A stretch of DNA of 64,000 bases from Coptis chinensis (taxonomy: Eukaryota > Streptophyta > Magnoliopsida > Ranunculales > Ranunculaceae). The notes beneath the pieces were generated by a model. The model was not told the origin of the DNA. It was given only the letters and a program-made list of their open reading frames with translations, and did not search any database. Of this stretch, positions 21,670 to 24,014 are shown in pieces. The translations under genes and the position numbers were made by a program. The stretch covers positions 14,718,501-14,782,500 of the forward strand of contig CM027377.1 of NCBI GenBank assembly GCA_015680905.1, written 5' to 3'. How positions within the stretch are numbered: the first letter of the stretch is position 1; each line of letters starts with the position of its first letter.

Positions 21670-22017
21670 ATGAGATTGAGTTCCACGGATATGCGGGATA
21701 GAAAGATGTTATTTCTTTGCTATTCTATCTATTTGTGCATCAAGTTGAAGAAAGTCTCAATCTATAATGAAGAAAAGATAGTAGCTCGTCGTTTTATAGG
21801 CTTTATCATATTAAGTCGGAAGAGTTTAGGTAATACTTTCAAAGTGACTCTCGACAGTAGAATCGTGGTTATTCAGGAAGAATCGCAGCAATTCCCCAAT
21901 CCTAACGAAGTAGTTCTTCCATAATCCAATGAACAACAATGATTACTTAGGATCAGCTTGCAAATTTGTGGCATCATAGTAGAATCATTACCAACAGCAC
22001 GCTGTGCGCCTAAGTGC
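21670..22017 (+). pseudogene. atp4: Nuclear copy of the 5' part of mitochondrial atp4
   Basis: The translation follows the N-terminal half of plant mitochondrial ATP4 (ORF25, the b-type stator subunit of F1Fo ATP synthase). It starts at the ATG as MRLSSTDMRDRKMLF and continues VSIYNEEKIVARRFIGFIIL, SRKSLGNTFKVTLDSRI, IQEESQQFPNPNEVVLP and, after a stop, LLRISLQICGIIVESLP and TARCAPKC. It ends abruptly at 22017 and the reading changes to a PPR-like sequence. A frameshift lies near 21745 and a stop near 21922. Plant atp4 normally lies in mtDNA and is about 190 codons, so this is a partial organelle insert with no function. Identification rests on motif memory, but many blocks agree in order. 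Confidence 0.85.
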
Positions 22018-22167
22018 ATTTATGACGACCATGAGGCTTCGAGCTACCAGCCAGATTTGTGGACTTATAATGCTATGTTATCAGTCTATGGGCGCTATGG
22101 AAAGGCAACTGAAGTGGAAAGGCTTTTTAAGGAATTGATGCAGTTACATATAGTAATAGGAAGTTAA
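22018..22167 (+). pseudogene. PPR gene fragment (EMB1270-like) fused to the atp4 copy
   Basis: Immediately after the atp4 homology the same frame encodes SSYQPDLWTYNAMLSVYGRY, then GKATEVERLFKELM, a single pentatricopeptide repeat with the usual W-T-Y-N-A-M helix and A-x-x-L-F-K-E-L helix. The words resemble the EMB1270 (At3g18110-type) PPR family, which binds organelle RNA. Only one repeat or so remains, out of many expected. It ends in a non-PPR tail and stop at 22165-22167. It cannot fold as a working PPR protein. Confidence 0.7.
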
Positions 22168-22667
22168 TGTTGAACAAAAGACTTAGTAAGTAAATCTTTC
22201 TTAAAGAAGATAAACTTTGACATCGTATGAAGATAAACATTAACCCTTATAGTGCTGTACCTTGTTCTTTTTTTTAAGTCCTATCAAGTAATTCCTTGCA
22301 ATCTAAGCCCTCTGCATGATGGGTATCTTGAACATATCTATGCGAATATATTAGAATGACTAAGTGTGAACAACATACTGATTCATATGCGTGTCAAGAT
22401 AGTCTTGATCGACATTATCACCCAATCTTTTAGATTAGCGATCCGCACAGTGAGAAACTCCTTTTACTGCCGTGAGCTACTAATGATAGTTGACACTAAC
22501 TTTGACATATAGCTTAGAAACGAATTTGAAATATGAATCCAGTAAACCTTTCACTTATGTCATTCGAATTTTGATTGGTCTAATACCCACATAATGCCTC
22601 TGATTCACATAAGTAAAACCTTTTGACATTGCCTTAGACTCTGATAGTGAGGAACCATTGTTAAGAG
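22168..22667. other. DNA between the PPR and UGE fragments
   Basis: No ORF or known motif supports a gene. It may be intron or flank captured together with the neighbouring fragments. Confidence 0.35.
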
Positions 22668-24014
22668 GCCATCCACTTTGCTGGTTTAAAAGCAGTTGGT
22701 GAAAGTGTGCAGAAACCATTGCTTTACTATAATAATAACATTATTGGCACTATATATAGCTCTCTTGGAAGTCATGGCTGAGCATGGGTGTAAGAAGGTA
22801 TTTTCTCATGCTCATGTCATATGCGAATTGAACACGTCATGCAAGTGATTGATTCAGTATATTCCTTATCCAATGTGCTCTGAGTAATACGTGTTTGTCT
22901 GTTTATAAGTAAGTGATATATGTTGTAATTTGGTGAATATATTTCATGAGAAGCTGTTGTGATGTTAATACTTGTGAAGGTATGAACATTGAAAGGATCG
23001 CCACCTATTTTCCCCAAATAGCTACATGGATATCTGGTCTCTTTTGAAATTGAGATTCGAAATAAGAAGTCAAGCGTGGATCTTGTGTTATACTTGAGAG
23101 ATAATTAATATCAACTAATAATAACTAACTTGTGGCTTTTTCGACACATAAATCTTGGATTTTGCATCTTCCATTAACAATACTTGTTTTGATTCATGAT
23201 TTTATTGGTTTGTCTTAATCGCATTTTGCATATGTTATATGAAATCATTACTTGTGCAACATAAATTATAGTACATGAAATAATATGAACCCAATCATCC
23301 AAATTGGTGCAAGGAACTTGTCAACATTGAAATCTATGTACCTAATGGATCCTTCTGTGGTTTGGCATCCTCATGGAGTAACTAAAAGTCGCGGTTTCAA
23401 CTATGACTTGCTTGCAAAACTATCATTTGTTTATTCTCCATATATATTTGCTTAATTGTGATGTTGTCATACTTTTATATTTGGTTGATCCTCACATTTT
23501 TTTATACATTTCAGCTGGTGTTTTCATCATCAGCTACTGTTTATGGATGGCCAAAGGAGGTTCCATGTACAGAGGAGTTTCCTCTGTCTGCTTCAAATCC
23601 ATACGGACAAACAAAGGTAAGTTTTGCCAGTGATCGGTCTAGTAGTGTTTCAAGAGACCAAATGGAAAGCAGGACATGCTTCACTTTGTGTTTTGTCAAT
23701 TGGTAGACACTTCATTATATAATTTTATCTGTCACAATAAACTTTTTTTGACGTAGTAATAAGATGATAATGCTTATTTTTACAGCTTTTCATTGAAGAG
23801 ATTTGTTGGGATATATGTCGTTCAGACTCTGAATGGAAAATTATGTTGCTAAGATATTTCAATCCAGTTGGAGTTCATCCTAGTGGCTATATAGGTGAAG
23901 ATCCCCGTGGAATCCCAAATAATTTCATGCCTTTTGTGCAGCAAATTGCTGTAGGCAAGAGACCCTCTACAGTGTTTTGAAATGACTATTCTACCAAGGA
24001 TGGCACTGGGATAT
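22668..24014 (+). pseudogene. UGE: UDP-glucose 4-epimerase gene fragment
   Basis: Three consecutive exons of a plant UGE/GALE gene are recognisable. Exon piece 22668-22798 encodes [20 protein letters not shown], then [10 protein letters not shown] after a short insertion that breaks the frame, with donor GTATTT. Exon 23515-23616 encodes [19 protein letters not shown] and NPYGQTK, which holds the catalytic Y-x-x-x-K; it has a proper acceptor CAG and donor GTAAGT. Exon 23786-24014 encodes [19 protein letters not shown] and [13 protein letters not shown], then a stop within the usual TVFGNDYSTKDGTG. The N-terminal Rossmann part and the C-terminal third are missing. The enzyme interconverts UDP-glucose and UDP-galactose in the cytosol; this copy is dead. 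Confidence 0.85.

Follow-up and report, generated by a model that had tools for sequence, protein, structure and literature searches.

Mitochondrial atp4, PPR and UDP-glucose epimerase fragments in a very probable chimeric Helitron of Coptis chinensis

Results

Gene fragments and Helitron ends at the locus

The window analyzed here is a stretch of 64,000 nt of the C. chinensis genome. A first-pass annotation had placed three coding pieces on one strand of it, from mitochondrial atp4, a PPR gene and a UDP-glucose epimerase (UGE) gene. All three are real, lie on the plus strand and are supported by Pfam. They form part of the following series of features, given in window coordinates with the evidence in brackets:

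13268 to 24392, minus strand: very probable chimeric Helitron of ~11.1 kb (four genome copies with the same stretch; empty sites of copy c8b)
13268 to 13300, minus strand: 3′ terminus in use, hairpin CCCGTTC-GTT-GAACGGG, CTAG, then T (4/4 copies)
13268 to 16297, minus strand: block common to an abundant Helitron family (genome hits)
16865 to 16891, plus strand: internal 3′-end-like Helitron motif of a second type (pattern scan)
17302 to 18082, minus strand: decayed Helitron helicase remnant, Pif1-like C-terminal part (weak Pfam match)
19187 to 19219, minus strand: internal 3′ terminus, putatively bypassed, CTAG decayed to CTAA, then T (4/4 copies)
19187 to 21379, no strand assigned: block X, high-copy in related elements (40 scored of 2613 candidates)
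21380 to 21400, no strand assigned: 21-bp filler from block X to the mitochondrial piece (comparison with L037, L038 and L019)
21401 to 22017, plus strand: mitochondrial DNA with the nad4L 3′ end, spacer and atp4 5′ part (Pfam and copy comparison)
22018 to 22152, plus strand: PPR fragment (94% identity to an intact gene on C7 over 120 bp; tail by eye)
22153 to 22670, no strand assigned: patchwork of short high-copy repeat pieces (genome comparison)
22671 to 24081, plus strand: UDP-glucose 4-epimerase fragment, from part of exon 3 to the start of intron 5 (intact gene on C3)
24082 to 24392, minus strand: 5′ terminal region, ending (TA)nAAAAGC (copy comparison)
24392 to 24419, minus strand: 3′-end-like motif of a neighboring minus-strand Helitron (pattern scan)

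The Pfam matches were Mt_ATP-synt_B at 21670-21924 (E 2.5e-15), PPR at 21943-22167 (E 2.4e-6) and GDP_Man_Dehyd/Epimerase at 23407-23706 (E 6.8e-8 / 2.8e-5), together with an Epimerase match at 23771-23980 (0.0076) under its cut-off. The atp4 ATG lies at 21670 and 116 atp4 codons are kept up to 22017. The mitochondrial piece had been described as atp4; it does contain atp4, but begins at 21401, in the 3′ end of nad4L.

The 11.1-kb unit has defined ends and recurs at three other places

Copies of the whole composite were found at C2:36625392-36636466 (c2), C8:20157038-20173370 (c8a, with a 5.2-kb insert at about window position 14610) and C8:21714311-21725417 (c8b), which bears out the earlier proposal that the gene pieces are cargo of a multi-capture Helitron. 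The four copies are 95.8-97.4% identical by blast piece, with Jukes-Cantor distances of 0.023-0.033. Outside 13268 to 24392 their flanks are unrelated, except for a short host sequence common to c8a and c8b. A similar TGGAATATCARGAGCCAAAGAAAAA stretch was observed on both sides of c2.

The termini are those of Helitrons (5′ TC, 3′ CTRR), with CTAG in all four copies and TC in three. The 5′ tip is TCTA in c2, c8a and c8b and CCTA in the window copy, where another Helitron adjoins; there the 5′ end, at ~24392, is uncertain by three bases. This minus-strand end falls in the region 24240-24392 in which the first-pass annotation had suggested searching for one. Position 24393, which had been read as the start of the next Helitron, instead marks the element's own 5′ end, and 24392-24419 resembles the 3′ end of the neighbor, with a hairpin no better than shuffles (z -0.70). 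The 3′ hairpin at 13268 to 13300 has one stem change in c8a and a DNA fold of -6.7 kcal/mol (z -2.08; 8/200 shuffles were equally good). A further 3′-end-like motif, of the GCCGTACGGC type, was seen at 51109-51143 on the minus strand of the window.

A T directly follows CTAG in every copy, and the base before the 5′ TC is A in c2 and c8b and T in c8a, whose 5′ flank carries a later insert. When the flanks of c8b were joined in silico, they matched empty sites over all 115 bases at 40 of the 40 scored places (203 candidates). For this one copy, the continuity of the joined flanks indicates that the element inserted between A and T and duplicated no target sequence.

Copies c8a and c8b are inserted at one and the same position in a ~680-bp, presumably hAT-like element whose inverted ends read TAGGGCTGGCAATGGGT. 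Since the two lie 1.55 Mb apart and their flanks agree over 227 bp on the left and about 440 bp on the right, we considered whether segmental duplication, rather than Helitron transposition, spread the block. The common flank is, however, the short terminal inverted repeat (TIR) element, which is bordered at each copy by 8-bp repeats of its own (perfect, GCATCAAT, around c8b; 7/8 around c8a), and the sequence differs beyond it. Moreover, the flanks of the window copy and c2 are unlike the others (by blast; window left flank against c8b and c2, right flanks for all pairs), the ends fit Helitrons and the c8b empty sites are clean, and we regard duplication as highly unlikely. The TIR element may possibly have carried the Helitron into the c8a and c8b sites. 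Two separate Helitron insertions at one TIR site are equally probable, because the host flanks differ by 4.5% between the two copies and the Helitron by 2.5% (Fisher p 0.004), and because the host is itself high-copy (203 candidates).

A Rep/helicase protein is expected of autonomous Helitrons only, and membership does not need it. No Pfam match was obtained for eight ORFs. The helicase remnant gave a Pif1_2B_dom match in one of three peptides (E 6.3e-5, 23.1 bits against a cut-off of 23.9) and none in the other two. As only this decayed Pif1-like remnant is present, the element is non-autonomous. We consider it very probable that 13268 to 24392 is a non-autonomous chimeric Helitron on the minus strand that was built stepwise and spread as a unit.

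A decayed terminator lies inside the element

The left 5.9 kb of the element is a patchwork of blocks that also occur separately elsewhere in the genome; 13268 to 16297, for example, has 14 other matches longer than 2.5 kb with 89-94% identity among the 40 scored of 1740 candidates. Together with Helitron 3′-end motifs at 13268, 16891, 19187 and 24392, this is what would be seen if Helitrons and gene pieces had piled up by chance in nested independent insertions and had never been co-mobile. We give that explanation very little weight, and the four copies refute it for the composite as a whole: all 11.1 kb, every join included, is found again at three further places whose flanks are unrelated. 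Nesting is likely to have supplied raw material rather than to be the end state.

The first-pass annotation had taken 19188 for a Helitron 3′ end. The sequence there has the form of a terminator, but it is decayed and lies inside the element rather than at the edge of a neighbor. Its hairpin (19187 to 19219) folds at -4.8 kcal/mol (z -2.33), and the decayed terminus is present within all four copies, in addition to the internal motif at 16865-16891. Older relatives keep an intact CTAG at this end in 5/15 oriented loci by one pattern and 6/15 by another. In one of them, L013, the working 3′ end sits at the position homologous to the decayed internal end of the window; the L013 sequence beyond it corresponds to the window from position 19307 onward, at a nearly equal distance from the end. 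The decay of the 19187 end in all copies, combined with the working equivalent in L013, suggests that the old terminator was lost and that a downstream end is now used. On these sequence comparisons, the 3′ end would have moved by ~5.9 kb, from 19187 to 13268, through terminator bypass.

The mitochondrial piece was captured as DNA

Block X, which adjoins the filler and mitochondrial piece, has an exon-bearing appearance; it gave no Pfam match at E 5 or below and nothing of note among PDB sequences. No clean site preceding the mitochondrial capture was recovered: of the five scored copies ending at 21379, the two examined (L037 and L038) run on into unlike sequences.

Searching the assembly for an intact atp4 with PF05405 gave 16 matches, none reaching beyond profile position 104 of 163. 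As a stand-in for the mitochondrial genome sequence we used L019 (C4:6150500-6160499), a nuclear stretch with unedited frames for nad4L, atp4 and what we presume to be an mttB-like protein. NUMTs are nuclear mitochondrial DNA and are unedited; L019 is a NUMT beside a nuclear gene; besides the captured stretch, it is the only sizeable nuclear copy of nad4L-atp4 that we saw. It agrees with the captured piece in the order nad4L-atp4. A 29-bp mitochondrial spacer is found in L018, L019 and L020 and is missing from the 10 other aligned copies covering this part.

Comparison with PDB sequences gave no plant match for the atp4 pieces. For nad4L, plant NAD4L chains have L at three codons where the copies encode S, P and S. 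At these three editing codons, C is present in 14/15, 15/15 and 10/15 rows of the alignment, counting NUMT L019 as a row; the exceptions are T in L013 and in L018, and A at the third codon in the four window-family copies. Because the editing codons mostly read C, the piece was captured as DNA, and edited cDNA is disfavored as the source. L019 cannot be the donor, as it stops at 21989, 28 bp short of the captured end at 22017. That free mitochondrial DNA, rather than an existing nuclear copy, supplied the piece as the filler for a break is a tentative proposal to which we assign somewhat less than even probability.

The PPR piece was gained after atp4

The parental loci that the first-pass annotation had asked for were located on C7 for PPR and on C3 for UGE, and these intact donors rule out decayed resident genes as the origin of the fragments. 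The PPR donor (L025) has an open frame of 1194 aa and presumably resembles Arabidopsis EMB1270. In the window, the piece ends at ~22152 and has a small internal deletion, so that ~135 bp (about 45 codons) are kept.

Other loci preserve both states of this region. In L018 and L020, native atp4 (GAAAAGACAGTG) is followed by other sequence, of 85 and 83 bp, respectively, up to CATAATTAG; at this position, L015 instead carries a 681-bp stretch of the PPR gene. The right junction GGTCT|CATAATTAG is present in seven loci (L015, L013, L016, L021, L024, L027 and, with a small internal deletion, L012), and most of the PPR piece is retained in L013 to L017 and others. Since no deletion could have restored native atp4, this shows that atp4 came first and PPR after. 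The substitution tree resolves little (support is 70 for the grouping of L020 with L012 and 42 for the clade that leaves out L018); it does not recover a simple atp4-then-PPR order of copies, and to that extent would speak against it. We saw no bases in common at either PPR breakpoint. We assume that L014, L015, L018, L020, L021 and L022 are Helitrons; a Helitron 3′ end was not found in the examined stretches of these six loci. Separately, the reverse strand of L018 has a conserved frame at ~6375-6800, with matches below cut-off to MTR4 beta-barrel (4.8e-4) and DUF7915 (0.0021), which is perhaps another captured gene.

The atp4-PPR join is inherited, and its frame is closed

The direct in-frame join of atp4 and PPR at 22017/22018, noted in the first-pass annotation, is exact, falls 348 nt after the atp4 ATG and is in frame in all four window-family copies and in the older L012. 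It also occurs elsewhere in the genome. A 511-nt probe (window 21660-22170) had 23 matches in the 935.6-Mb genome; 12 of them, spread over seven contigs, span the join, and two more stop exactly at it. The join is therefore inherited, dispersed sequence, and an assembly chimera is ruled out.

Might the join represent a functional fusion gene under selection? It is in frame in five of the eight readable copies, a count that covers copies other than L016 and L017 (without the atp4 start) and L021 (too long for alignment); one in three joins would be in frame by chance. In none of these eight copies, however, can the frame be read from the atp4 start across the join without interruption. Upstream of the join, TAA stands at codon 85 in all four window-family copies and TGA at codon 91 in L012. 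The PPR part is short as noted above, and the whole cargo runs antisense to the Helitron. We consider a selected fusion gene extremely improbable and, judging from these reading frames, take the cargo to be presumably dead.

The epimerase fragment retains its introns

The UGE donor on C3 is intact, with nine exons, GT-AG introns and 347 aa, and the captured piece is 94.1% identical to it (77 differences in 1303 ungapped sites; 85.8% counting gaps). A normal exon-intron structure had been claimed for the piece. Its introns do align with the parent and four of the five internal splice sites keep GT/AG, but the last donor is AT and the exons are decayed: the first exon piece carries a 4-bp insertion, and the third a TGA. 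The retained introns indicate capture as DNA, and with the intact C3 donor they confirm the origin from genomic DNA that had been proposed. UGE matches in the genome comprise the four copies, the C3 donor and one further fragment on C7. This second fragment (L036, C7:9814000-9819000) lies beside a Helitron 5′-end-like stretch in reversed order, and its right edge nearly equals that of the UGE piece in the window.

Discussion

The interpretation in the first-pass annotation is partly supported by these results, and we propose that the composite was very probably assembled in five steps. An older Helitron, with block X and a working 3′ end homologous to 19187, would have gained nad4L-atp4 mitochondrial DNA. 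Next, 681 bp from a nuclear PPR gene took the place of ~85 bp beside atp4, and the window lineage later lost most of this PPR piece. In a third step the 5′ side would have been rebuilt, taking up repeat pieces and the UDP-glucose epimerase fragment and acquiring a new 5′ end, and in a fourth the 19187 terminator would have been bypassed in favor of the 3′ end ~5.9 kb further on, at 13268. Finally, the composite spread as a unit via Helitron insertion between A and T. The comparisons show the composite with its ends and copies, the donor genes and the precedence of atp4 over PPR; we infer the order of the third and fourth steps and a rolling-circle mechanism; the route of capture would have been end-joining or gap repair.

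Stepwise and internal capture and Helitrons with multiple termini are already known. In maize, gene fragments were added over successive transpositions, and nested Helitrons left mutated 3′ ends inside the elements; a multi-terminus route has been proposed (Dong et al., 2011; PMC3288121). The Coptis element is similar in its stepwise gain of fragments and its decayed internal 3′ ends. It differs in having a mitochondrial piece, as "mitochondri" does not occur in the text of the maize report, and in that its family holds the states both before and after an internal replacement (compare PMC3288121). For Helraiser and Helibat, a hairpin near the 3′ end acts as the terminator, bypass of which shifts the end to a downstream terminator (PMC4778049). 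Read-through past a terminator to a downstream end is common to both cases, although Helraiser is an animal element tested in cells (PMC4778049), whereas in the plant it is the decay of an internal end that points to bypass. For Spodoptera Hel1, internal stepwise captures with 2-13 bp end junctions are explained by a filler-DNA model (PMC6544945). The pieces captured here are likewise internal and were gained stepwise, but the two PPR breakpoints, unlike the Hel1 junctions described there, have no junction homology, and ~85 bp of acceptor sequence was lost (compare PMC6544945). The filler-DNA model, as reported, would predict short shared junctions, and their absence at these two breakpoints counts against our reading.

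The mitochondrial cargo is unusual, and the before and after states are of interest. Neither "mitochondri" nor "organell" occurs in the text of a 2026 review on how plant transposons capture genes (PMC13317346) or of a maize-rice Helitron survey (PMC2575219), and a search of titles and abstract starts in the open-licence literature found no report of organellar cargo in Helitrons. Like NUMTs, the captured piece is unedited mitochondrial DNA in the nucleus; unlike NUMTs, it has been multiplied by a transposon.

How Helitrons pick up genes is debated, between read-through past the 3′ end and filler in break repair. This family retains footprints of both, namely an internal replacement whose earlier state is extant and a bypassed terminator. 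It also provides a route by which one mitochondrial scrap turns into a dispersed nuclear repeat, and such dispersed cargo can mislead the dating of NUMTs and the annotation of atp4, PPR or UGE "genes." If the direct capture of mitochondrial DNA were true, Helitrons would serve organelle DNA both as a second point of entry and as an amplifier.
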